From Candidatus Bathyarchaeota archaeon (lineage in GTDB: Archaea > Thermoproteota > Bathyarchaeia > Bathyarchaeales > Bathycorpusculaceae): a stretch of DNA of 64,000 nucleotides. Where the stretch lies: contig JAOZIE010000012.1 of NCBI GenBank assembly GCA_026014485.1, positions 62,001 through 126,000 of the forward strand. The letters run 5' to 3'. Both the position numbers and the translations under genes were made by a program. Below, piece after piece: positions 29,716-42,615 of the stretch. The notes below the pieces were generated by a model that was given only the letters and a program-made list of their open reading frames with translations, ran no database searches and was not told the origin of the DNA. Every line of letters begins with the position of its first letter. Within the stretch, counting starts at the first letter, position 1.

Positions 29716-30045
29716 ATGTTCCGAGTAAGAGTTAACAAAATTGAGTCAACCCGCGACGTAGACGGTAACCTAGGCAAACGAATCGAACTGGTTGAAGAAA
29801 GAGAAATCTCCGGTAACAACTTTGTCATGAGACCCCAAACCGACGAAGCAAAAATGATCCAGGACGTGCTTCAGGCAGTGCAGCAGCAGATGCCCATGTT
29901 CCCGCAACGGCAGCAGGTAGCTATGCCCAAGATTCTGCTGTTCCTCACAGAGCAGGAATACGACAGTTTAGGCATAAACTTTGACGTGAACCAAGTCTAC
30001 GAAGTCACCCTAGCAAATCAGGGAATCCAATTTACGAAAGTGTGA
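29716..30045 (+). CDS. archaeal small protein, possibly arcadin-1-like
   Basis: The 109-aa protein begins MFRVRVNKIESTRDVDGN and ends ILLFLTEQEYDSLGINFDVNQVYEVTL, a compact alpha/beta design. The size and the closing LTEQEYDxLG...VYEVTL pattern recall arcadin-1, encoded with crenactin in other TACK archaea. That link rests on memory of the family and is weak; no actin gene is in the window. Its 3' end overlaps the convergent gene by 14 bases. Confidence 0.5.
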   Translation: MFRVRVNKIESTRDVDGNLGKRIELVEEREISGNNFVMRPQTDEAKMIQDVLQAVQQQMPMFPQRQQVAMPKILLFLTEQEYDSLGINFDVNQVYEVTLANQGIQFTKV

Positions 30046-30367
30046 AAAGCGTTTTCCGCGCCTGCCTAAGCGCCGCATAACGGGGATGAAACGAAAGCAC
30101 AAACATCATGCTGCGAATTTTCGAGGAAATCTCCGCTAAATCTCCATTTTTGCCTTCATCGCAGTAAATTGGGATTGGCTCTTGCCCGCCGCACTCATAA
30201 TACACGTAGATAGGGGAGGGCCCGCTTGCTTGCTTAACCAATTCAAAGCTGAGGTTCAGCTGTTTAGCCATCTCTTGAGCGGCGGATTTAACCGATTGAA
30301 GCCGCTGCTTGGGACAAGAGGCAGCAGACACATACACCATGAGTTTACCTGAGTCAGTTTTGAACAT
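30032..30367 (-). CDS. conserved-looking hypothetical protein
   Basis: The 111-aa protein has an alternating strand/helix pattern (KLMVYVSAASCPKQRLQSV, FELVKQASGPSPIYVYYECG, EPIPIYCDEG) and three Cys. A GAGG lies seven bases before ATG 30367, supporting translation. No family was recognised. It overlaps the convergent 29716 gene by 14 bases. Confidence 0.55.
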   Translation of the reverse strand: MFKTDSGKLMVYVSAASCPKQRLQSVKSAAQEMAKQLNLSFELVKQASGPSPIYVYYECGGQEPIPIYCDEGKNGDLAEISSKIRSMMFVLSFHPRYAALRQARKTLFTLS

Positions 30368-30585
30368 GAGGGTTCCTCAGTAGCGGGGTTACCGTTTGAG
30401 CTTTTAAGACACATGCACAAACAACCTGCACACACAGAGGGGAGAGCCCAGTTAAAGTAAACAGCCACTTGGAAGACAGGCTTTTGTTGCCATGTTTGAG
30501 GGAGCCAACGCCTTCTTCTTTTTCAACGTATTAATTAGCCCCTGCCCAAACTGTTACCGTAAGATATCTTTGAAGGTGTCCTGTA

Positions 30586-30864
30586 ATCAAAGCCCGAGCC
30601 CACATCCACGTCAGCGGCAGAGTTCAAGGCGTCTTCTTTCGAGCCCGAACCACCGAAAGAGCCGTGCGGTTAGACGTAACAGGTTGGATTTGTAACTTGC
30701 CCGACGGTAGGGTAGAAGCGGTTTTTGAGGGGGAAGAGGAAGCTGTTGCTGCGATTGTGGAGTTTTGCAGGCGCGGTCCAAGCCGCGCAGTCGTGACGGA
30801 TATGGATGTGAAGTGGGAGTCGCCGACTGGAGAATTTAAAAATTTTAAGATGCAACATCGATGA
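30586..30864 (+). CDS. acyP: acylphosphatase, apparent ATC start
   Basis: Translated from ATC 30586 the protein is 92 aa, the normal acylphosphatase length: KARAHIHVSGRVQGVFFRAR with the phosphate-binding loop and catalytic Arg, then GWICNLPDGRVEAVFEG with the catalytic Asn. It hydrolyses acyl phosphates. The frame has a stop at 30571-30573 and no ATG, GTG or TTG before the ATC; AAGGTG at 30573-30578 is seven bases upstream of it. The first standard start would remove the catalytic Arg region. Confidence 0.85.
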   Translation: MKARAHIHVSGRVQGVFFRARTTERAVRLDVTGWICNLPDGRVEAVFEGEEEAVAAIVEFCRRGPSRAVVTDMDVKWESPTGEFKNFKMQHR

Positions 30865-30930
30865 AGCAGCGGGGTTTTGTGGTTACGGTTTAAATGGATA
30901 AGCACCCAATTGGTGGGTGAGGAATATTCG

Positions 30931-31467
30931 GTGAAGGTGCTTGGTTTAGTGGGGAGCCCCCGCAAAGGCGGCAACACAGACCTGCTAGTTAGCGCGGTGC
31001 TGTACGGCGCGGGCGCAGGCGGTCACGAAATAGAGAAGATTAACCTCTACGACATAGACATCTTGCCCTGCATGGATTGCAAAGGCTGCAAAAAAGGAAA
31101 TTTCCAGTGTGCACTTAAAGACGGCATGAAGAAGCTTTACCCCAAGCTTGAGGAAGCCGACGTACTCGTTTTCGGCACACCCCTGTACTGGTATGGATCC
31201 ACAGCGAAGATGAAGCTGATGGTTGACCGCCTACGACCCTACGTTGCCTCCAAAAAGCTGAAAGGCAAAAAGACAATGCTTTTGGTACCCTCCGAAGAAG
31301 GAGCCGACGCCTGCAGCTGCCTCGTATGCATGTTTGAGCTTTCCTTCAAGTACTTAGAAATGGAGCTATCGGGGAAACTTTTGGTTCAAGCCTCCGAGAG
31401 GGCAGAAGTAAAAAACCAGCCCAAAGTTTTAGATGAGGCGTTTGCGCTAGGAAAAACGCTAACATAA
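30931..31467 (+). CDS. iron-sulfur flavoprotein-like NADPH-dependent FMN reductase
   Basis: The 178-aa protein has a flavodoxin-like fold: KVLGLVGSPRKGGNTDLLV binds the FMN phosphate, then LPCMDCKGCKKGNFQC gives the C-x2-C-x2-C cluster motif of Isf-type proteins, followed by VFGTPLYWYGSTAKMK. Such proteins pass electrons or reduce flavin, quinones or oxidants in anaerobes. GTG 30931 has GAGG eight bases upstream; the longer frame to 30877 has no site. Confidence 0.85.
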   Translation: MKVLGLVGSPRKGGNTDLLVSAVLYGAGAGGHEIEKINLYDIDILPCMDCKGCKKGNFQCALKDGMKKLYPKLEEADVLVFGTPLYWYGSTAKMKLMVDRLRPYVASKKLKGKKTMLLVPSEEGADACSCLVCMFELSFKYLEMELSGKLLVQASERAEVKNQPKVLDEAFALGKTLT

Positions 31468-31478
31468 AGAAGTGGTTA

Positions 31479-31904
31479 TTAGGGTTTTTTCTTGTAGACT
31501 CGGAAATGTGAGTCTCTGCCTGCGCTGACGTATTCGCCGCCGACTCCACGTACGGTTGAGGCGATTTTTGCGAAGTTCTCGCTGCCCAGAAACTGCTTGG
31601 GTTTAATCATAGTGTAGTCGCCTTTGTCTTCAAAGAGGAGCAAGCTGTCAAGGTCTTGGGGGAACATCATGCGTATGTCTTCGACGTTCTGGGATTGCGG
31701 GGTTGCAGACGCAGCGGCTGCGGGAGCGGGTGCGGAGGGTCTAGGCGCAGGAGCAGCTTGAGGGCTTGCGGTTATCTGTGAAACAGCCAATGATTTCACG
31801 CTGGCGGAAACCGTTTTGAGGTCCGCAGTTACTTCTTTGAGAACCAAAAGGAGGTCATCAATTTTCTGTACAAGCTGGTCCATTTTCTCTTTATCTGCAC
31901 TCAT
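31479..31904 (-). CDS. coiled-coil protein with Pro/Ala linker
   Basis: The 141-aa protein has an N-terminal heptad-rich helix (KMDQLVQKIDDLLLVLKEV, about residues 5-45), a Pro/Ala/Ser linker (about 55-80) and a C-terminal folded segment with KPKQFLGSENFAKIASTV and GRDSHFRVYKK. It resembles archaeal proteins of unknown function that may oligomerise through the coil and bind a partner through the tail. ATG 31904 has GGGTGA five bases upstream. Confidence 0.65.
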   Translation of the reverse strand: MSADKEKMDQLVQKIDDLLLVLKEVTADLKTVSASVKSLAVSQITASPQAAPAPRPSAPAPAAAASATPQSQNVEDIRMMFPQDLDSLLLFEDKGDYTMIKPKQFLGSENFAKIASTVRGVGGEYVSAGRDSHFRVYKKKP

Positions 31905-31985
31905 CCAAGTCACCCAGTTTAAAGTACTTAAAGTGCATTTTATTATTTGAAATTTGCCATTAACCCATAAAGGAGGCTCCAATGC

Positions 31986-33035
31986 ATGTTTGAAATTGAC
32001 GGAAGCCAGAAAAGCGGAAGCGGCACCATCCTCCGATTAGCCGTAGCCTTAACCGCCATCAAAGGCGAAGCCCTCCACATAACCAACATCAGGCATAACC
32101 GCCCCAAACCGGGCTTGAAGCCGCAGCATCTGGAGGCAGTTTTGGCAGCGGCAAAACTCTGCGGAGCCGAGTTGGAGGGCGCCACTCTTGGCAGCAGAGA
32201 ACTTTGGTTTAAGCCGAGGGAAATACGGGGCGGCGAAGTGAAAACGGAGATTGGAACCGCAGGCAACATCCCCATGCTCTTCATGACGGTGCTACCCATG
32301 TGCATTTTCGCCAAGGAACCTGTAAGGCTTCACGTCGACAAAGGCGGAACAGACACCAGAAACGCGCCCACCATGAACTACTTTCGCAAAGTGTTTTTGG
32401 CGGCTCTGCGGCGGATGGGCGTGGAAGCTGAGGTAACGGTACAGCGTTATGGCTACTACCCAAAGGGAAACGGCAAAGCCACTCTAACAGTGAAGCCCAC
32501 AGCCAAGCTGAAGCCGTTCCGCGCAGAAAACTTTGGCACACTACCACGCATCAGCGGCGTTTCGGTTTGCACATTTTTGGCGGACAGACAAGTAGCGGAG
32601 AGCCAAGCCAAAGCCGCAGCCCGATGTCTCGCCGAAAAAGGCTACAGCGCCAACATCCAAGTCGTAAACGACACCTCAAACCCCATACAGAAAGGCAGCA
32701 GCCTCGCGCTATGGGCAGAAACCAACGCCCAAGCCATCCTCGGAGCAGACGCCATTGGGGAACCAAAGAAAACCGCCGAAGCCGTCGCTGCAGAAGCAAC
32801 CCAGAAACTGCTCGCTGAACTTGCCTCCCAAGCCACCGTGGACACCTACTTGGCGGACATGCTGGTTCCTTACGTGGCGTTGGCTAAGGGGGCGTCGGCT
32901 TATTTGACGGGGACGGTTTCGGAGCATTTGGAGGCGAACCTTTGGCTGGCAGAGAAAATTGTGGGCGCCCGCTTCAAGGTTAATAGAGTCGGCGGGCTGT
33001 ATAGAGTGGAAAAGCTGGCAAAAGCCGATGCCTAA
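31986..33035 (+). CDS. rtcA: RNA 3'-terminal phosphate cyclase
   Basis: The 349-aa enzyme begins IDGSQKSGSGTILRLAVALTA, has NIRHNRPKPGLKPQHL and GTAGNIPMLFMTVLP, and ends near QATVDTYLADMLVPYVALAKG with the DxLxxxLA-like active-site region. It makes 2',3'-cyclic phosphates at RNA ends using ATP. The expected catalytic His near the C-terminal part is in the SEHLEANLW segment. It overlaps trm5 by eight bases. Confidence 0.92.
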   Translation: MFEIDGSQKSGSGTILRLAVALTAIKGEALHITNIRHNRPKPGLKPQHLEAVLAAAKLCGAELEGATLGSRELWFKPREIRGGEVKTEIGTAGNIPMLFMTVLPMCIFAKEPVRLHVDKGGTDTRNAPTMNYFRKVFLAALRRMGVEAEVTVQRYGYYPKGNGKATLTVKPTAKLKPFRAENFGTLPRISGVSVCTFLADRQVAESQAKAAARCLAEKGYSANIQVVNDTSNPIQKGSSLALWAETNAQAILGADAIGEPKKTAEAVAAEATQKLLAELASQATVDTYLADMLVPYVALAKGASAYLTGTVSEHLEANLWLAEKIVGARFKVNRVGGLYRVEKLAKADA

Positions 33036-34101
33036 AGAAGCCGTCTGCCTCAAAATCCCCAAAGCCGAGGGGCAAAAAACGCTTGACTTAGCCAACAGGC
33101 TCGGGTTAACGGATAAAACCCTGCAAATCCAAAGCTGCAGCCAAGGTTTTCTGTGCATTCCGCTTAAACGGGAGCCAACCGAAAAAGAACAGACCGACTT
33201 GAAACGTCAGTTGACCGAAGCCCAGTTTTCTGTGCAGGTTTTTGCTGAAAAGAGGCAGCGGGAAAAAACCCTCAGCGAAGCCCTCGCGGGTAAGTTGCCG
33301 CCGCAGTTGCTGTCGAGTCTGCCCCGAGCCTTCGACGCAGTGGGAGACATAGCTATAGTTGAAATCCCGCCTGAACTGGAAGCCTACAAAGGCGCGGTCG
33401 GCGAGGCGGTTCTTCAGACGCACAAGAACATGCAGGTGGTGCTGGCTAAGGCGGGGAAAGTCAGCGGAACTTTTCGTCTGCGTGACTTCGAATTCATCGC
33501 GGGAAAACACCGAACCAGCACCATGTACAAAGAGTACGGGTGCAGCTACTACGTGGATGTAGCGAAGGCATATTTCAGCCCTCGGCTTGGACACGAACAC
33601 CAAAGAGTCGCCGAGCTTGTGGAGGAAGGCGAAACCGTCGTGGACCTCTTCGCGGGAGTAGGCCCCTTCGCCGTGCCCATAGCCAAAAACCGCAAAAACG
33701 TCAAGGTCTACGCAGTGGACATAAACGCCGACGCCGTCCAACTCCTCGAAAAAAATGCCCGACTAAACAGGGTGGAGGGCAGGGTGCACCCGATGGTCGG
33801 TGACGCAAGGCAAGTTGTCAGCGAGAAGCTTTCGGGCGTGGCGGATAGGGTTATCATGAATTTGCCTGAAACAGCCAGCGCATTCATTGATGTCGCCTGC
33901 AAAGCGGTCAAACCCTGCGGCGGAGTGGTGCATTTTTATGGGTTCATGCGGGCGCCCGAAACGCTTGAAGACCAAAAGAAACTCTTCTCCAAAGCGGTCG
34001 CGGACGCGGGCAGAAGAGTGGAAGACTTCACTTGCGCCAAGGCTGTGCGTGAAACGGCGCCTTATGAATACCAAATAGTTCTAGATGCAGTAGTCCGTTA
34101 G
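33028..34101 (+). CDS. trm5: tRNA (guanine-37-N1)-methyltransferase Trm5 family
   Basis: The 357-aa protein joins an N-terminal D1/D2 region to a Rossmann methyltransferase domain: FRLRDFEFIAGKHRTSTMYKEYG leads to VVDLFAGVGPFAVPIAK (SAM site), VYAVDINADAV and the catalytic NLPETA (NxPxxA). It methylates G37 of tRNA, preventing frameshifting; the related Taw2/Trm5a enzymes of wyosine synthesis are the alternative. The ATG 33028 overlaps the rtcA stop. Confidence 0.9.
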   Translation: MPKEAVCLKIPKAEGQKTLDLANRLGLTDKTLQIQSCSQGFLCIPLKREPTEKEQTDLKRQLTEAQFSVQVFAEKRQREKTLSEALAGKLPPQLLSSLPRAFDAVGDIAIVEIPPELEAYKGAVGEAVLQTHKNMQVVLAKAGKVSGTFRLRDFEFIAGKHRTSTMYKEYGCSYYVDVAKAYFSPRLGHEHQRVAELVEEGETVVDLFAGVGPFAVPIAKNRKNVKVYAVDINADAVQLLEKNARLNRVEGRVHPMVGDARQVVSEKLSGVADRVIMNLPETASAFIDVACKAVKPCGGVVHFYGFMRAPETLEDQKKLFSKAVADAGRRVEDFTCAKAVRETAPYEYQIVLDAVVR

Positions 34102-34203
34102 CCTTCCTGTTAAGTTGTTTTTGTTCAATTAGGTTTATCGTATTTTTTGAGTAAGATTTGGGCTTTCAGAGGTAGGTCCGTCGTGTTTCTTCGGTTCAGC
34201 TTA
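34095..34203. repeat. imperfect direct repeat, left copy
   Basis: About 110 bases, roughly 80% identical by eye to 36246-36355. The pair brackets the surface-protein gene at 34347. The copy begins inside the trm5 stop region, so the duplication is recent enough to be read at DNA level. Confidence 0.8.
34125..34203 (-). pseudogene. C-terminal remnant of the 36285 regulator gene
   Basis: On the minus strand this piece reads LNRRNTTDLPLKAQILLKK, matching LNRRNTPDLPFKARVLLKK at the end of the membrane-tethered regulator at 36285-36761. No domain-coding sequence precedes it, so it is a gene end left behind by a duplication or insertion event. Confidence 0.75.
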
Positions 34204-34346
34204 GGATACTTTGCTACTGGGAAAAGGCGAAACGGGTCCTAACTTGAGTTGGGCATTTGGGGTTAGTGGTTCATTGTGTATTAGTTAAAGCGTCCGAAAT
34301 GTTTTTAAGATAACATCGCTGACTTGCCATTAATCGATGTGATTAA

Positions 34347-36086
34347 ATGATAATATCGACGAATGTGGCAAAAAACAACACTAAAATCTACCTCACCACA
34401 GGATTAATCATCATAATCTTGGTCGCTGGAATAGTAACATGGCAACTCTACCCCAGCAGCCAGAGCCCCAGTGCTTCCCCAACCCCATCGCCCTCCGCCA
34501 ACCCAACAGCCCCACCCACAACACCCCCCGAATTCGACTTAACCATAATAGGCGCCAACGGAACCACCATAGTCCTAAACAAAAATGAGCTACTTGCCCT
34601 CTCAGCATATACTGCCAGCGGAGGTTACATAAGCCAAAATATCATCCACGGATACGGCAACTACACAGGCATCCCCGTCTACACTCTCTGCGAAATAGTA
34701 GGAGGCGTAGAAAGCGACGACACCGTTGAAGTCACCGCTTCTGACGGATACACCATGACCTACACCCGTGGACAAGTAAACGGACAAGGCTTCGCATGCT
34801 ATAACCCAACAACTGGAAGCGAGGCTCCATCCACAGACACCATGGTGCTTATGGTGGCCTACTACCAAGACGGCGCACCGTTATCTTCAGACCAAGGTCC
34901 ACTAAGAATAGTAATTGTTGGACCAGAAGGACTCGCCACTCCAGGCAATCAATGGGTCAAATACGCAACAAAGATAACCGTAATCGCCTCAACATCTCCA
35001 ACAGCCAGCCCAACTCCAACAACCAACCCAACAGCCAGCCCAACTCCAACAACCAACCCAACAGCCAGCCCAACTCCAACAACCAACCCAACAGCGTCAC
35101 CATCAACTGCCTCCACGCCCACTGTCTCGCCTTCACCCACTGCCACTCCAACGCCAACATCCACACCAAAACCCACCGCCACACCCGCCCCAACAGCCAC
35201 GCCCACACCTGAACCCAAATGGTACTTAGGATTCAGCGGCGGAAACACAGCCAACATGAGCAGTTTAACCTTTGAAGCCCAAGCCAGCCAAAACGCAGTA
35301 ACATACGCTGACTCTAGCAGCACATGGTCCGGCATACCGCTGTATCAACTGGTAGACTGGTACATCAACGCAGGAAACATCAATAGCGGCGCTTTAACGG
35401 TGGGCTACAATGTAACCGTAATAGCTGGTGACGGATACACTTGCGAATTAAATGGCACCCGCGTAAATGCAAACAACAACATCATCGTAGCCAACGTAGC
35501 AAACGGCACCGCCCTTACTGGCTCAAACTACCCCTTAACGCTGACGGGCTCGGACTTAACCAAAAAGGAAACGGTCAAGAACATAGTACAAATCCGAGTT
35601 GACGTTGCACTGCCAGACCTGACCTTAACCGTAGTCGGCTCCAACGGCACAACCCTTGTCTTCAACTCTACAAGCATCACAACGTTACCGTCAGTCAGCG
35701 CAATGGGAGGCTACAACGCGCATGGCACAATCACAGGCGTCGGCAACTACACAGGCATATCCGTTTTGTCACTGTGCAACATGGTCGGCGGTATCAACAA
35801 CAACAGCTTCATACAAGTAACCGCCTCCGACACATACACCAAATCGTTCACCTACGAACAGCTCACAGCAGGCACCGGATTCGCCGTCTATGACCCCGAA
35901 ACAAACAACTCCACCACCGCAACCCAGCCGTTAACAGTCATCATCGCCTACGCCGTCAACGGCACCCCATTACAGCCGCCACACGGACCCTTGAAAGTAG
36001 CCATCGTTGGACCAGAAGGACTACTCACCATCAGCAGCCTATGGGTCAAAGACATCATACAAATCAACGTCTACCAACTCGCATAA
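34347..36086 (+). CDS. large surface protein with three repeat domains and a Pro/Thr stalk
   Basis: The 579-aa protein has an N-terminal signal anchor (about residues 13-33), a first domain (about 60-215), a Pro/Thr/Ser/Ala stalk (about 216-290), a second domain (290-415) and a third (420-579). Domains one and three share NGTTxV, GNYTGIxV, ASDxYT and GPLxxxIVGPEGL...WVK, a pattern close to the substrate-binding part of sulfite-oxidase-type molybdopterin proteins but with no visible cofactor Cys. Many N-x-S/T sites suggest heavy glycosylation. It may be an adhesin-like or S-layer-associated protein. The start at 34347 has no strong ribosome site. Confidence 0.75.
35001..35090 (+). repeat. three perfect 30-bp tandem repeats in the stalk
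   Basis: Three identical 30-base units (unit begins ACAGCCAGCCCAACTCC) encode tandem [10 protein letters not shown] decapeptides. The identity at DNA level points to recent slippage, so stalk length probably varies between strains. Confidence 0.9.
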
Positions 36087-36245
36087 ACGCCACGCAAACA
36101 ATCCAGCTTCCTCTTCTTTTTTTAGTCAACTAAGGCAGAAATAATTAGCCGCTTCCTCAGGCACCTTCAGCCAGAACTCCGTTGCCTTCAGTTTTACTTT
36201 TTGTAGACTCGGATGTGGCTACCGAGTAGCTTTAGACGCCGTAAG

Positions 36246-36355
36246 CCGTTAGCCTTCCGGTTAAAGGCGTTCTTTCAAGTAGGTTTATCGTAGTTTTTTG
36301 AGTAAGACTCTGGCTTTAAAAGGCAAATCAGGTGTGTTTCTTCGGTTCAGCATAG
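36246..36355. repeat. imperfect direct repeat, right copy
   Basis: This copy spans the 3' end of the regulator gene at 36285 and 39 bases beyond it. It matches 34095-34203. Confidence 0.8.
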
Positions 36356-36761
36356 AAAACAGGGAACCAAGAAATATTAGGGCAAACCCGAAAGCTGCTA
36401 CGCCTTCCACTGGAACAATTTTCCATTGAAGCAGAAAGGTGAAGAGGATTAGTGCGCTTCCGATGATGACCATCACTGAGTTACTTCGGGATGCTGTGGA
36501 ATGTAGGGCAAATTCTTTTTTTCCGTCTTCGGTTACTGCGAAGTAGCCGTTTTTTTCTTCAATCATGCCTGAGCTTATCAGGTAATTCCAATCGTGATGA
36601 AAATGTCCATCAGACTTGTAGCCTAAAGCTGAACAAATCTGTGATTTCACTCCGGGTATTGCGTTGACTCTGCTGTGGGGAGCACTGTAAATAAGGTACA
36701 GTAGTTTGGTTCTTGGCGCCTGAATATCCGCGTTTATTCCACGTACCTTTGACACACGCAT
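36285..36761 (-). CDS. membrane-tethered winged-helix regulator
   Basis: The 158-aa protein has an N-terminal winged helix (about residues 15-90; ICSALGYKSDGHFHHDWNYL and GYFAVTEDGKKEF form helix and wing) and two membrane helices (about 95-112 and 120-138) with a basic C-terminal tail inside. It has the same architecture as the regulator at 4259, though the sequences are not alike. A palindrome of the same type as at 4202 lies 106 bases upstream of its start. A remnant of a second copy lies at 34125. Confidence 0.75.
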   Translation of the reverse strand: MRVSKVRGINADIQAPRTKLLYLIYSAPHSRVNAIPGVKSQICSALGYKSDGHFHHDWNYLISSGMIEEKNGYFAVTEDGKKEFALHSTASRSNSVMVIIGSALILFTFLLQWKIVPVEGVAAFGFALIFLGSLFSMLNRRNTPDLPFKARVLLKKLR

Positions 36762-36866
36762 CTCCCGCTTTCAAATATGCATGCTCTGAAATAAGCAAAT
36801 CTTGGAAACCTGCTTTTTCGCTTTGCACACACACCAACTGGCGATTTTTACTTATGACTCTATGTC

Positions 36867-36884
36867 TTAGAGTTCAAGCTCTAA
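36867..36884 (+). promoter_or_regulatory. palindromic operator TTAGAG-N6-CTCTAA
   Basis: Perfect 6-bp arms with a 6-base spacer lie between the divergent regulator gene (36761, minus) and the small membrane protein gene (36934, plus). The last base is 16 bases before the end of CTATATC (36894-36900), the same spacing as at 4202-4235. Confidence 0.6.
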
Positions 36885-36893
36885 ATGGTAGGG

Positions 36894-36900
36894 CTATATC
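36894..36900 (+). promoter_or_regulatory. TATA box of the 36934 gene
   Basis: CTATATC lies about 37 bases before the ATG at 36934, predicting a start near 36921 and a short leader that contains a GTGA ribosome site. Confidence 0.5.
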
Positions 36901-36933
36901 CACAGTCTACACACATTAGAGCAGTGACCTAAG

Positions 36934-37179
36934 ATGGCAGCACAAATAGAAGCAATATTCGAGTACACTGCAGAACACCCTGCTGTGTTGATGATTATAG
37001 GCGGGATGTTTTTTGCGATTGTCTCAATTTTTACAGCACCTATAAACGGAGAAACAACCTCTTTCCTCAGAAACCTAACATACTTGCTAATCGTAGGCGG
37101 CGTTCTACTTCACATACTAAGCGGGGGACTGAGATTTCTGGTGCGGGTGTTCAAAAGAATCTTCAACATACAGGATTAA
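36934..37179 (+). CDS. small two-segment membrane protein
   Basis: The 81-aa protein has two hydrophobic helices (about residues 17-36 and 47-70) joined by a polar loop and ends with a basic tail (RVFKRIFNIQD). No family is recognised. Its promoter carries the shared palindrome, so it may be a target of the divergent membrane-tethered regulator. Confidence 0.6.
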   Translation: MAAQIEAIFEYTAEHPAVLMIIGGMFFAIVSIFTAPINGETTSFLRNLTYLLIVGGVLLHILSGGLRFLVRVFKRIFNIQD

Positions 37180-37241
37180 TTTCCCAACAAAGACCAAGAT
37201 GAACCAACAATGCGGAATATGAGCAAAGCAGGGGTGTAACT

Positions 37242-37469
37242 TTGAAGAAGCTGCGTCTGCTCAAAATTTTCACTTTTCTGTTTTTCACACTTTTCGTGAT
37301 TCTGATTGCGTGGGAGACGCAGGTTCAGAACACTTTGGTCTCAGTGTCAGCTTTGATGACGTTTACCGCTGCAGCATGTTTATTGCTATGCTATGCCGTG
37401 TTGGGGGAAACAAACAAGCCTCAAACCAACTTCACTCGAAACTATCCAATCATCAAAAATGAATTGTGA
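37242..37469 (+). CDS. small two-segment membrane protein
   Basis: The 75-aa protein begins MKKLRLLKIFTFLFFTLFVILIAW from TTG 37242 and has a second membrane segment at about residues 33-53. It follows the other small membrane gene after 62 bases and overlaps the convergent DUF371 gene by 17 bases. Function unknown. Confidence 0.5.
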   Translation: MKKLRLLKIFTFLFFTLFVILIAWETQVQNTLVSVSALMTFTAAACLLLCYAVLGETNKPQTNFTRNYPIIKNEL

Positions 37470-37887
37470 GGGTGATTTTGGCTTTTTGGTGGGGGTTTTT
37501 GAGTTTCTCAACGAGTTTTCGTGAGAGGTCTTTGGCGGCTTTGTCAGCGTGCACACCCAGCGTGCGGTCGGAGGCGAAGTCGCTTTTGCGAAGAACCATC
37601 TCTACGGGGTGCGTCAGAGCCAGCTTGGGGGAGCCTTCCGCGTGGATTTCCTCGGAGACGTCGGCTGCCTCGATTTTTATGGTGAGTTTCGCGTGAGGTT
37701 TTTGGAGCGCCGCCCTGAATTGGGCGTCTAAATCTGCTAGACCTTTGTCGGCGGCGACGATGAGTATGCAGTCTCCGTTTCTCGTTAGGTGTTTGTCTTT
37801 GGTGAATTCAACCGTCGAGTGGTGGGTGGCTTGGATGTTTTCGTGTCCGAGCCCGAAAATGACCTCTGTCAGAACAGGCGATGGCAA
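37453..37887 (-). CDS. DUF371 family protein
   Basis: The 144-aa protein has the DUF371/COG2090 pattern: VIFGLGHENIQATHHSTVEFTKD, NGDCILIVAADKG and LRKSDFASDRTLGVHADKAAKDL. The family is almost confined to archaea and is predicted to bind a small ligand or RNA; no function is established. It begins two bases after the stop of the S-layer-domain regulator. Confidence 0.85.
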   Translation of the reverse strand: MPSPVLTEVIFGLGHENIQATHHSTVEFTKDKHLTRNGDCILIVAADKGLADLDAQFRAALQKPHAKLTIKIEAADVSEEIHAEGSPKLALTHPVEMVLRKSDFASDRTLGVHADKAAKDLSRKLVEKLKNPHQKAKITLTIHF

Positions 37888-37889
37888 TT

Positions 37890-38855
37890 TTATTCTGGAA
37901 CCTCTATAGAGTCCACTTTGCCGTCGCCATCCAAATCGTAGCCTTGGATGACCGTTGCGAATTCTCCGTGGTTTTGATATTTGCGCAGGGTTTTCTGCCA
38001 GAAATTAGTAAAAGCCAAAACGCAGGCTTTTGTGCCCACCGCCTTGTTTCCCGCAAAGACAATAACGCGTTTGCTGCTATCCCACGGGTTAGGAATATTC
38101 GCGACCAGCCCCGCCACATCCGCGGTGTAGACAAGCCCCGTTTTCTGCGAAACTAAACCGCCAAAGAGGTAGCCCTGCGCCGAGGACTGCATGTTAAACC
38201 GAATCGGCAAGTACTCGTTGAGCTCTTGAGTAAGCAGATTGGTACCTGGTCCCCCGACGAGGATGAGGTTGTTTTTCTCTTCTTTCTCAGCTTTCACATC
38301 CACGTCCAGTTTTATAGCAAAGTCCGTGGGCGTCTTCATGAATTGCCCCAGAAAAAACGTGAGTTGCGCCGCGTAGTGCCCGTCTCTGGCGCTGGTTTTA
38401 AAGGGACCATGTGGGGTGGGGCTGCCGACGACTATTTTGCCGTCGAATGCACCGTCTTTGTTGATGAAGTCTTTGAAGAAGGCTTGAATCGTGGGGTTTG
38501 CCGCCACAAGCGAGGGGCGCTGCATGGGTTTGTAGCCGTCTGGGAACTCGATGCAGAATGCGGAGGAAACGGTGCGGTAGTACTTGGCGGTGGCGCCCTT
38601 CTTCTTCTCGACGCGCTCAACGGTTATAGCGCCTGATTTCTCCAGTTTCCTTATGTGATAGTAAACTTTCTGTTCATGCATGTCTAGGTGCCGCGCGATT
38701 TCCAGCGGGTACATGGCTTTCTGGTTGAGCAACGAAAGAATTCTCCAGCTTAGGCTACCCAGCATCATTTTGAGGTCCTGCGGGTTCTGTACGACGGCGA
38801 TTTCTTTGACTTCCTGCTGGTTGCCTTCTTCTTGGAGGAGCAGCTTCTTGTTCAA
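37890..38855 (-). CDS. winged-helix regulator fused to an S-layer-like domain
   Basis: The 321-aa protein has an ArsR-like winged helix (about residues 30-90; YPLEIARHLDMHEQKVYYHI) and a long C-terminal part with NNLILVGGPGTNLLTQEL, NPWDSSKRVIVFAGNKAVGT and DLDGDGKVDS, similar to the C-terminal region of archaeal S-layer proteins. Such fusions recur in archaea. The TTG at 38855 is chosen because GGGGA lies eight bases upstream and the TATA-like TTTTTTATT (about 38893-38901) fits it better than TTG 38879. It is divergent from fen1. Confidence 0.78.
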   Translation of the reverse strand: MNKKLLLQEEGNQQEVKEIAVVQNPQDLKMMLGSLSWRILSLLNQKAMYPLEIARHLDMHEQKVYYHIRKLEKSGAITVERVEKKKGATAKYYRTVSSAFCIEFPDGYKPMQRPSLVAANPTIQAFFKDFINKDGAFDGKIVVGSPTPHGPFKTSARDGHYAAQLTFFLGQFMKTPTDFAIKLDVDVKAEKEEKNNLILVGGPGTNLLTQELNEYLPIRFNMQSSAQGYLFGGLVSQKTGLVYTADVAGLVANIPNPWDSSKRVIVFAGNKAVGTKACVLAFTNFWQKTLRKYQNHGEFATVIQGYDLDGDGKVDSIEVPE

Positions 38856-38939
38856 TGCTTTTGTCCCCTGCGGATACAACTACACAACCGTTAATAAAAA
38901 ATTTTTCATGGTTAAGGTTTCTTCCAGCGTTTTCGCAAG

Positions 38940-38948
38940 TTTATTTAA
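38940..38948 (+). promoter_or_regulatory. TATA box of leaderless fen1
   Basis: TTTATTTAA is centred about 30 bases before GTG 38975, with no ribosome site between, which predicts a leaderless or near-leaderless transcript. Confidence 0.55.
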
Positions 38949-38974
38949 CCAGTTTTCCGCCATTTAGTTGTCGG

Positions 38975-40018
38975 GTGCCAGTTTTGGGTGTAAACCTGCG
39001 TGACATTATATCGAAAACCGTGGTTAAGTTAGAGGATTTAGGCGGCAAAACCGTTGCCATAGACGCTTTCAACGCCATCTATCAGTTCCTCAGCATCATC
39101 CGCCAGCCCGACGGCACGCCCCTCATGGATGGCACAGGCAAAGTCACCAGCCACCTCAGCGGACTGTTCTACCGCACCTGCAACCTCGTCGAAATGGGCA
39201 TAAAGCCAGTTTACGTTTTTGACGGGGCGCCCCCAGTTTTCAAGCGGCAAGAAATCGAGCGGCGAAAACAAGTCAAAGTAGAAGCTCAAGTTCACTACGA
39301 AAAAGCCGCTGCAAAAGGCGACACCGCCAAAATGCGAAGGTTCGCGCAAGCCACAACCAGCATGAAGGATTACATGAAAACCGACAGCCAACGGTTGCTG
39401 GAGCTCATGGGGCTACCTTGGATTCAGGCGCCCAGCGAAGGCGAAGCGCAAGCAGCACAAATGACCCGAAAGGGCATGGCAGATTACTGTGCAAGCCAAG
39501 ACTACGACAGCCTACTCTTTGGCGCGCCACTGCTTTTGCGGAACGTAACCATTTCGGGCAGGCGCAAACTACCCAGCAAAAACGTCTACATAGACATCGT
39601 GCCTGAAACCATATCGCTCAAGGAGGCTCTCAAAGACCTCGAAGTCACCTACGAACAACTCATCGACATAGGCATCCTGATTGGCACGGACTTTAATCCG
39701 GACGGCATCCGAGGACTGGGACCAAAAACCGCCCTGAAACTCGTCAAGCAACATGGCACACTTGAAAATGCGTTGCCATATATCAAGAACGCTGAGTTTC
39801 CGCATCCGCCCGAGGAAATCCGCGAAATCTTCCTTCACCCGCAAGTCACAGACGACTATAAGCTGGAGTGGCGGGAGCCCAGCGTCGAAGGCATCGTCGA
39901 CTTCTTGGTCCGCGAAAAAGACTTCAGCGAAGACCGTGTCCGCAAATCTGTAGAGAAAATGCAGGCAGGCGCAGCAAAGCAGAAGGGTAAAATGACGCTG
40001 GAAAAGTGGTTTGGCTAA
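38975..40018 (+). CDS. fen1: flap endonuclease 1
   Basis: The 347-aa nuclease has the N region (VAIDAFNAIYQFLSIIRQPDGTPLMD, VYVFDGAPPVFKRQE), the I region (QAPSEGEAQAAQM, SQDYDSLLFGAP), the helix-hairpin-helix GTDFNPDGIRGLGPKTALKL and a PCNA-binding tail KMTLEKWFG. It cuts 5' flaps in Okazaki fragment processing and repair. The GTG start 38975 gives PVLGVNLRDI, the conserved N-terminus. Confidence 0.95.
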   Translation: MPVLGVNLRDIISKTVVKLEDLGGKTVAIDAFNAIYQFLSIIRQPDGTPLMDGTGKVTSHLSGLFYRTCNLVEMGIKPVYVFDGAPPVFKRQEIERRKQVKVEAQVHYEKAAAKGDTAKMRRFAQATTSMKDYMKTDSQRLLELMGLPWIQAPSEGEAQAAQMTRKGMADYCASQDYDSLLFGAPLLLRNVTISGRRKLPSKNVYIDIVPETISLKEALKDLEVTYEQLIDIGILIGTDFNPDGIRGLGPKTALKLVKQHGTLENALPYIKNAEFPHPPEEIREIFLHPQVTDDYKLEWREPSVEGIVDFLVREKDFSEDRVRKSVEKMQAGAAKQKGKMTLEKWFG

Positions 40019-40704
40019 AGCTTGTGCCCTAACGCGCCTGTTAACGGCACAAACGACACTGCACCCAAGTTTTCCTCAACGATTTTTCCATCCGATTGTT
40101 TTGTTAGTTTGATGAGGTGCTGGAACAGGAACGGGCTGCCCACGGGAATCAGCATAACACCCCCACTTTTCAGTTGGTCCACCAGTGGCTTGGGGATTTG
40201 GGGGGCTGCCGCAGTGACGACTATGCGGTCGTAGGGTGCCTTGGCGGGGTAGCCTTTGGAGCCGTCGCCGTTGACTATGGTGATGCGGTCGCCGTAACCT
40301 GCGTTCATGATGTTGCGGCGCGCGGTTTCAGCCAGCGCATGAATAACTTCCACAGTGTAGATGTGCCCCCACTCGCTTCTAGGTGCCTCTTGGGAGGCCA
40401 CAATCTCCGCCATGGTTGCGGCGTGCCAGCCTGAACCCGCGCCGACCTCCAAAACCTTGCATCCGAGCCCTAGCTGGAGCGCTTCGTTCATGACGGCAAC
40501 GATGCGGGGCTCTGAAACTGCCTGGCCAAACCCGATTTGCACGGGCGTATCCGAAGCCGCATAAGACTGCGCCCCAACAGGGACAAAGCTGCTTCTTGGT
40601 GTAGCGCGTATTGCTTTGAGGACGGCTGGCGTTTGCAGCACGCCTTCTTTGATGAGGGTTTCGATGAGTTTTTCCCAGTTTGCCTTCTCCAACTGGAGCA
40701 CCAC
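40015..40704 (-). CDS. pcm: protein-L-isoaspartate O-methyltransferase
   Basis: The 229-aa enzyme has IRATPRSSFVPVGAQSYAASDTPVQIGFGQAVSEP and the SAM motif KVLEVGAGSGWHAA, with RIVVTAAAPQIPKPLVDQL, all standard for PIMT. It methylates isoaspartate so that damaged proteins can be repaired. It converges with fen1, overlapping four bases at the 3' ends. Confidence 0.93.
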   Translation of the reverse strand: MVLQLEKANWEKLIETLIKEGVLQTPAVLKAIRATPRSSFVPVGAQSYAASDTPVQIGFGQAVSEPRIVAVMNEALQLGLGCKVLEVGAGSGWHAATMAEIVASQEAPRSEWGHIYTVEVIHALAETARRNIMNAGYGDRITIVNGDGSKGYPAKAPYDRIVVTAAAPQIPKPLVDQLKSGGVMLIPVGSPFLFQHLIKLTKQSDGKIVEENLGAVSFVPLTGALGHKL

Positions 40705-40782
40705 TCTAACTAGTGGCGTATTCTGCCTTTTAACGTCTGCGAATTCAGAATAAGGAAAGAAAGTTTATAGTGAAAAGGAGGG

Positions 40783-42615
40783 TTATTTGACGGTGACGGA
40801 TTTGGCTAGGTTCCGCGGCATATCGGGGTTGATGCCTTTCTCCACTGCCATATAATAGGCGAAAAGTTGTAGGGGAATCACAAACGGAATCGGTGAGAGC
40901 ACCTCGGGGATGCCTTTGGGGACTTCCACGTAGTCGTCTGACAGCGCCTTGATTTCCTCGTCGTCTTCCTCGATGATGCTTATGATGGAAGCACCGCGGG
41001 CTTTCATCTCCTGAATGTTGCCGATGAGGGTCTTGTGGGTCTGCCCATCCCGCGGGCAAATGAACACAACGGGAAAGCCATGTTCGATTAGGCTTATGGG
41101 GCCATGTTTGCTCTCGCCAGCAGGAAAGGCTATGGAGGGAACGTAGGCGATTTCCATGAGTTTTAGCCTGCCCTCATATGCGGTGGCGGTGTTTACGCCT
41201 CTGCCCAAAAAGAAGAATATCTTTGCGTCACGGTACTTCTTGGCTAGCTGCTTGATTTTGTCTTCTTGGGAGAGGATTATGGCTTCGACTGTTTCAGGTA
41301 GCTTGTCTAGTTTCTCGGCGAGGTAGTCCATTTCGTCCTGTGAAACCTTGCCTCGTTTTGTTGAGAGTTTTAGTGCTAACTGGGCTAGCACGGAGAGTTG
41401 TGAGGTGAAGGTTTTGGTGGCGGCTACGCCGATTTCGGGTCCTGACTGTTGCCCGAGGTAGACGCGGCTGACGCGGGTGAGGGTGGAGCCGACGGTGTTG
41501 GTTAATCCGAGTACGGTGGCGGCGCGTTGTTGGCTGCAGGTGACGGCGCCTAGGGTGTCGGCGGTTTCTCCTGATTGGCTGACGGCGAGTATGGTGCTGT
41601 CTATGTTGACGGATTTTCCGTGTTGCTCTATGAATTCGGAGGCGTAAACGGGGTATGTGGGTAGGAATGCGAGTTTGCTGAACATGTATGATGCGGCTAG
41701 GCAGGCGTGGTAGCTGGTTCCGCAGGCGACGAGGAAGACTTCGGTGGCGCGGTCCAGAAACGTCGAAAGCAACTCCAGATAGTGCTCCTGGGCGCGTAGA
41801 GTGTTGCGTAGGGTGTCGGGTTGCTCGTGGATTTCTTTAATCATGAAATGCGGATAGCCCTGTTTGACTGCCATCTCGGGGGTCCAGTCGATGGTTTTGG
41901 GTTTCCGCGTGACGGGGGCGCCGTCTTGGATGCGGATGATTTCGTATGCTCCTGGGGTGAGGGTGACGAGTTCGCCGTCGTTTATCATGACGGCTTGGTT
42001 GGTCATGGGTAAAAATGCGGTGAGGTCGGAGGCGCAGTAGGTGGCGTCTTGAGCTACGCCTATGACAAGGGGGCTTTCGTTTCGGGCGCACACTATCTTG
42101 TCGGGTTCCTTGGATGAGATGACGGCAAGCGCGTAGGAGCCGCAGAGCTTTTTGATTGTTTCCACGACGGCTTGGGTGAGGGTTAAGGTGGGGTTTTGTT
42201 TTAGGGCTTCTTCGATGAGGTGCGGAATGACTTCGGTGTCGGTTCGGGATTGGAAGGTGTGTCCGCGGTTTTCGAGTTCGGTTTTTAGTTCGGCGTAGTT
42301 TTCTATGATGCCGTTGTGGACGGCGATTATTTGTCCTGTGCAGTCGGTGTGGGGGTGGGCGTTGATTTTTAGGGGGGCGCCGTGGGTTGCCCATCGGGTG
42401 TGTCCGATGCCGATGTTGCCTTGGAGGTCGTCGAGGTTGAGGAGTTTGTGGACTTCGTCGATTTTTCCTTGGTCTTTTTTGATGAAGACTTCGCCGTTGT
42501 TTATGGTGGCTATGCCGACGGAGTCGTATCCGCGGTATTCAAGCCGTTTGAGTGAGGCGTGTATGGTGGGGGCTGCGTCGCCGTTTGTTGTTATGCATCC
42601 AAAGATTCCGCACAT
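40783..42615 (-). CDS. glmS: glutamine-fructose-6-phosphate aminotransferase (isomerising)
   Basis: The 610-aa enzyme begins MCGIFGCITT, with the catalytic Cys2 of the glutaminase domain, followed by HTRWATHGAP, and has two SIS domains (ACGTSYHACLAASYMF; SQSGETADT; GRGVNTATAYEGRLKLMEI) and the C-terminal DMPRNLAKSVTVK tail. It makes glucosamine-6-phosphate for UDP-sugar precursors, which fits the glycosylation genes elsewhere in the window. Its 188-base upstream gap shows no ribozyme or other recognisable element. Confidence 0.96.
   Translation of the reverse strand: MCGIFGCITTNGDAAPTIHASLKRLEYRGYDSVGIATINNGEVFIKKDQGKIDEVHKLLNLDDLQGNIGIGHTRWATHGAPLKINAHPHTDCTGQIIAVHNGIIENYAELKTELENRGHTFQSRTDTEVIPHLIEEALKQNPTLTLTQAVVETIKKLCGSYALAVISSKEPDKIVCARNESPLVIGVAQDATYCASDLTAFLPMTNQAVMINDGELVTLTPGAYEIIRIQDGAPVTRKPKTIDWTPEMAVKQGYPHFMIKEIHEQPDTLRNTLRAQEHYLELLSTFLDRATEVFLVACGTSYHACLAASYMFSKLAFLPTYPVYASEFIEQHGKSVNIDSTILAVSQSGETADTLGAVTCSQQRAATVLGLTNTVGSTLTRVSRVYLGQQSGPEIGVAATKTFTSQLSVLAQLALKLSTKRGKVSQDEMDYLAEKLDKLPETVEAIILSQEDKIKQLAKKYRDAKIFFFLGRGVNTATAYEGRLKLMEIAYVPSIAFPAGESKHGPISLIEHGFPVVFICPRDGQTHKTLIGNIQEMKARGASIISIIEEDDEEIKALSDDYVEVPKGIPEVLSPIPFVIPLQLFAYYMAVEKGINPDMPRNLAKSVTVK

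Follow-up and report, generated by a model that had tools for sequence, protein, structure and literature searches.

A surface-protein gene between two copies of a trm5-regulator junction in a Bathyarchaeota genome

Gene content of the trm5-DUF371 interval

The stretch of DNA that was analysed (64,000 nt, referred to here as the window) sits in a 216-kb contig of the 2.37-Mb genome of an uncultured Bathyarchaeota archaeon. A gene for a trm5/TYW2-family tRNA methyltransferase (32959 to 34101, plus strand; 351 aa when read from 33046) was intact and matched the Pfam family TRM5-TYW2_MTfase (E = 3.5e-49); of 120 relatives, 116 had a match at E 1e-30 or better. In these relatives trm5 usually lies tail to tail with a DUF371 gene, which in the window is located at 37453 to 37887 on the minus strand (PF04027, E = 1.5e-46). 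Between the two genes were found, in order, a gene for a 579-aa cell-surface-type protein (34347 to 36086, plus strand), a gene for a 158-aa regulator-like protein (36285 to 36761, minus strand) and two genes encoding small membrane proteins.

The regulator gene was intact and its product was 59-75% identical to homologs in relatives, as determined from the family alignment. The protein had no Pfam match; a weak match to Sso10a-type DNA-binding proteins (E = 0.0074) fell below the cut-off. It is predicted to consist of a winged helix and two membrane helices. Where the regulator lies away from trm5 (loci L074, L076, L077, L080, L082 and L084), it was often found head to head with a membrane protein gene; in L074, the one case tested, this gene gave a DUF996 match. 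A conserved palindromic, promoter- or operator-like motif (36858 to 36899, plus strand; core CTCTAAATGGTAGGGCTATA) lies between the regulator and the small genes. One copy of this motif was present in the 2.37-Mb genome, compared to none with the reversed-pattern control, and similar motifs were recognised by eye in the trm5-DUF371 gap of G065, G062, G069, G060 and G005. The motif may be a binding site of the adjacent regulator. The small membrane proteins appear to be older occupants of the gap. The 81-aa protein (36934 to 37179, plus strand) has homologs in the same gap of G006, G070 and AS06, and BLAST identified homologs of the 75-aa protein (37242 to 37469, plus strand) in the gap of G006 and G005; short ORFs resembling the latter gene were seen by eye in G065, G062, G069 and G060.

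The 579-aa protein has an N-terminal membrane anchor, assigned by eye, two Oxidored_molyb-like (PF00174) domains, a middle domain and a Pro/Thr-rich linker. Two stretches matched PF00174 (E = 4.6e-15; 56 bits against a gathering cut-off of 24), and the N- and C-terminal domains were 43-44% identical to each other. Part of the linker is encoded by three perfect 30-base tandem units (34998 to 35087), which are likely to be a site of length variation. Three matches to the 579-aa protein were obtained among solved structures; they were regarded as compositional, their best stretches being located within the Pro/Thr linker or spanning it. Homologs at E 1e-30 or better were present in 12 of the 256 genomes of the class, the host genome included. 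Since the paralog in the host genome (contig C9, near 289.4-291.5 kb) adjoins a gene that passes the cut-off for the tungstate transporter protein WtpA (299 against 242.75 bits), our best guess is that proteins of this class handle tungstate or molybdate at the cell surface. In G069 (L138:4850-14727) a surface protein of the same class is found among genes that we take to resemble mobA, mobB, fdhD and fwd subunits. In its domain types the window protein is like the PF00174-type surface proteins near tungstate-uptake genes in Bathyarchaeia, whereas its gene stands alone between trm5 and the regulator.

Both gene tails are present in each copy of the junction

The best local alignment across the locus paired positions 34069-34204 (copy A) with 36220-36355 (copy B). 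Its score of 123 compares to a maximum of 30 in 300 Markov dinucleotide shuffles, which excludes chance or low-complexity similarity as the source of the repeat. The repeat is 136 bp long, with 134 aligned bases, 25 mismatches and four gap columns, and the two copies are now 81% identical. A separate repeat scan recovered the same repeat in three pieces with a spacing of 2151 or 2150. An assembly error is unlikely because a misassembled repeat would be expected to be near-identical, and a dispersed repeat family was excluded by a search of the 2.37-Mb host genome, which holds two copies only. The segment between the copies (34205 to 36219) contains the 579-aa ORF as its only substantial gene; an additional short minus-strand frame (36129-36206) matched only itself in 72 genomes and was not considered further.

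Copy A comprises the live end of trm5, a spacer and a dead regulator tail (34143 to 34199, minus strand), in which codon comparison identified 19 codons in register with the intact regulator, followed by a 1-nt deletion. The minus strand of copy A reads LNRRNTTDLPLKAQILLKK, and the intact regulator reads LNRRNTPDLPFKARVLLKK. Furthermore, a profile of regulator tails matched the dead tail with an E-value of 2.3e-5. Copy B has the reciprocal arrangement, consisting of a dead trm5 tail (36220 to 36252, plus strand), a spacer and the live regulator tail. The live trm5 end (34069-34101) encodes YQIVLDAVVR followed by a stop codon, and its counterpart in copy B encodes YRVALDAVSR and a stop codon. 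In a free search this 33-nt piece of copy B was not significant (score 26, null maximum 32). When the alignment was extended without gaps from the stop codon common to both tails, 22 of 30 bases matched, a value reached by one of 19,879 random anchored pairs. The trm5 half of copy B reaches significance only with this anchor, a point against the explanation favoured below.

The first-pass annotation had reported that about 110 bases at 34095-34203 match 36246-36355 and that the left copy encodes the C-terminal end of the regulator. Both statements were confirmed; the match proved to be longer and the encoded tail to be decayed. The annotation had also offered, as one possibility, that a copy of the regulator was broken. 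The regulator tail is indeed dead, but this is half of the picture, as a trm5 tail is likewise broken on the opposite side. The dead trm5 tail in the right copy is a new observation, only the regulator half having been noted before. Because both copies hold a trm5 tail and a regulator tail, each represents the whole junction (trm5 tail, spacer and regulator tail) of an ancestor in which the two genes lay tail to tail.

The differences between the copies were assigned to the live or the dead copy where their direction could be read. In the regulator tail, five of the 11 differing sites were assigned to the dead copy, four to the live copy and two had no direction; in the trm5 tail, the corresponding figures for eight differing sites were four, three and one. 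Changes in the dead regulator tail comprised P to T, R to Q (two changes), V to I and one silent change, and the alignments placed an additional 1-nt deletion, and hence a frameshift, in a run near its end. The dead trm5 tail had acquired Q to R, V to A, a third change in a codon now read as S, and one silent change; the three non-silent changes fall where all six outgroups agree. The live tails had also changed, with two amino-acid-level changes in trm5 and L to F in the regulator. The comparison amounts to 19 differing sites, the direction being unclear at three, and does not reach significance on its own; the pattern would fit copies that started out identical, although the sites are few. 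Since the changes in the dead tails affect conserved residues and the left regulator tail is frameshifted, both copies have probably decayed in place from tails that were once intact.

The junction in related genomes

In Bathyarchaeota DYS_1 (G006), trm5 (71% identical) and the regulator (75%) lie tail to tail with no gene between them, and in AS06rmzACSIP_217 (AS06; JAAYYI010000034.1) the two genes abut without the 579-aa gene. The locus has two features expected of an insertion with target duplication: an uninterrupted, single-copy target in relatives (G006 and AS06), and a direct repeat of that target on both sides of the insert. In the first-pass annotation, a segment inserted with duplicated ends had been one of two readings, and a comparison with related genomes had been proposed; this reading is supported by the direct junction without the segment in G006 and AS06 and by the presence of both tails in both copies. 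No relative closer than G006 was found and the event was therefore not bracketed more tightly.

Alignment of the two copies, which had also been suggested as a means of dating the event, gave a Jukes-Cantor (JC) distance of 0.21 between A and B. The four-fold-site JC distance between the window and G006 was 0.91 (409 of 778 sites in five genes). Because the divergence of the copies is far below this value, the duplication most likely postdates the split from G006; the repeat mixes constrained and free sites, so that an exact date is not possible. In a five-row alignment, A and B were closer to each other than either was to G006. This result bears on a different account of the locus, in which an earlier, independent loss of a regulator left the tail on the left side, and another strain later donated the right part (trm5 tail and whole regulator) along with the surface gene. 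Regulator genes are found at several genomic places in relatives, and in G065 a 30-codon regulator tail is the sole remnant of the regulator beside trm5, the intact gene being about 97 kb away, so in-place remnants do exist. A distant donor would not have left junction copies that are closer to each other than to any relative seen, whereas a very close donor would still fit; overall, we regard such an import as very improbable.

The tail in G065 also has a bearing on a second alternative, namely that the trm5-regulator block was doubled in tandem and that the inner regulator and inner trm5 were later deleted and replaced by the surface gene. The final structure would be exactly the same, and G065 shows that deletions of this sort can leave tails behind. 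At least two events are required, compared to one for insertion, and none of the loci that were read shows an intermediate with both genes doubled there. We therefore consider it unlikely, and the single insertion with target duplication is preferred.

The wider occupancy of the gap was also determined. The tally used 87 trm5 rows, the best row per genome with weaker paralog-type matches left out, and most, not all, of the DUF371 rows; the DUF371 row of G100, which is on another contig than its trm5, was left out and the tally was unchanged. In 80 of the 87 genomes compared, trm5 and DUF371 were convergent on one contig. The gap between them was 60 nt or less in 61 of these genomes, 61-200 nt in six, 201-600 nt in six and larger in seven, including that of the window. 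Gaps of more than 200 nt (13/80) had varied cargo: the regulator with small membrane genes, VTT-domain and LPG_synthase_TM genes, a methyltransferase with a DUF3788 gene (G018), a 477-aa gene without a Pfam match (G051) and a 120-aa ORF (G026). A single ancient gain, of the regulator together with the small genes, may account for much of this occupancy. Scans of the named genomes gave no matches with trm5 and 11 loci with the regulator alignment.

In G070, VTT-domain and LPG_synthase_TM genes sit between trm5 and the regulator. A duplicated tail was looked for around these genes and none was found, and duplication is therefore not a general feature of gains at this site. Duplicated trm5 or DUF371 ends were above shuffles in none of 12 other loci with occupied gaps. 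The VTT (DedA-like) and LPG_synthase_TM pair is on one side of the regulator in G070 (L071:9669-11292) and, as judged by sequence resemblance, on the other side in AS06 (L117:3296-4815), which indicates that the pair moved or was gained separately within the trm5-DUF371 gap.

Occupancy of three control tail-to-tail pairs nearby was 1/11, 1/11 and 0/15 in the loci retrieved; these loci were partly chosen for carrying the regulator, and the 13/29 occupancy in that set is an overestimate. The trm5-DUF371 junction thus takes up genes now and then, and perhaps more often than neighbouring tail-to-tail pairs. The earlier suggestion of a hotspot for surface-gene exchange is not supported by these data, as a surface gene of the same class was present only in the genome of the window among the loci examined. 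It is highly improbable, in our view, that the trm5 junction is a preferred capture site in this family of Bathyarchaeota, where single genes enter by an unrecognised break-and-fill process, with target duplications of at least 100 bp by which both flanking genes survive. A literature search found nothing on this trm5-regulator locus, which is no proof of absence from print.

Origin of the insert and comparison with known systems

The middle domain of the 579-aa protein formed a clade with the copies from G062, G060 and G089 (support 97/97), apart from the host paralog; on this ground the gene was probably acquired from another lineage. The C-terminal domain was also nearest to these three copies, without firm support. 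Against such an origin, the N-terminal domain had the host paralog as its nearest relative (52%), although this placement was not well supported. The non-coding ends of the insert had no convincing match elsewhere in the host genome (best other E-values 0.16 and 0.049). When compared to the flanks of six homologs, the upstream end was clearly above shuffles with the start region of G060 (score 50, null maximum 27) and marginally so with those of G089 and the host paralog; the downstream end was above shuffles with none of the six.

From these results we infer a single event. The ancestor would have had the arrangement of G006, in which the tails of trm5 and the regulator are separated by no more than a few dozen bases. 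A complete surface-protein gene on a segment of about 2 kb would then have been inserted at the junction, and 136 bp, comprising the last 11 trm5 codons including the stop, the spacer and the last 20 or so regulator codons, would have been doubled with one copy on each side. Each gene would thereby have kept its own end from the nearer copy and stayed whole; the tails farther off would have fallen out of use, with the copies drifting to their present identity. We consider it likely that one insertion of this kind, with duplication of the 136-bp target, produced the locus.

A DNA transposon is not supported as the vehicle, as there were no inverted repeats of 25 nt or longer in 30000-42000 and no other substantial ORF in the segment. 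The repeats might instead be the attL and attR sites of a small integrative element that used the 3' end of trm5 and whose integrase was lost or acted from elsewhere. Integration with flanking att repeats at the ends of tRNA-modification genes is known, examples being SGI1 at trmE and the dusA elements (PMC8409611). As in those systems, the target here is the end of a tRNA-modification gene, repeats flank the insert and the target gene remains functional, with each host gene keeping an intact end. Unlike them, the segment carries a single cargo gene, which is its one substantial ORF, and lacks an integrase or excision gene. Pfam scans gave no integrase match among seven neighbouring proteins in the window, and the gap occupants checked in G018, G051, G070, G068 and AS06 were not integrases. 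No inverted ends and no short core repeat were found; the similarity is spread evenly over 136 bp across both convergent tails, compared to the 21-bp imperfect repeat of dusA elements (PMC8409611). An integrative element is accordingly an improbable source of these repeats, and insertion with target duplication remains the preferred explanation.

Given that the insertion happened, three routes can be envisaged. In the first, foreign DNA would have been captured at a double-strand break with a long staggered end (approximately 136 nt), which was filled in and joined with no need for a transposase; we favour this route tentatively, at somewhat less than an even chance. A tandem duplication of the junction with later replacement of its middle is possible but doubtful, and single-crossover integration of a circle that carried the same junction is slightly more doubtful again. 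All three leave the same scar and the sequence does not separate them.

Gene gain of this type is ordinary and known; the locus is a well-preserved example whose scar is unusually easy to read. It is a clear fossil of a gene entering a crowded archaeal chromosome without harm to its neighbours: the insert lies at the convergent ends of two genes, and the duplication has kept both whole. Few old insertions can be polarised and dated in relative terms, as this one can from its doubled junction. With further scars of this kind, it would become possible to measure gene gain by break capture in uncultured archaea.

A close parallel is with the fill-in, or target-type, duplications that accompany end-joining insertions, where, as here, the insert stands between direct copies of the target and the host is otherwise intact. 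Such duplications are known from other systems, an example being the small tandem duplications formed in human or mammalian cells at breaks whose single-strand ends are complementary (PMC8355091), whereas in the present case the process is only inferred, from an old scar in an archaeon.
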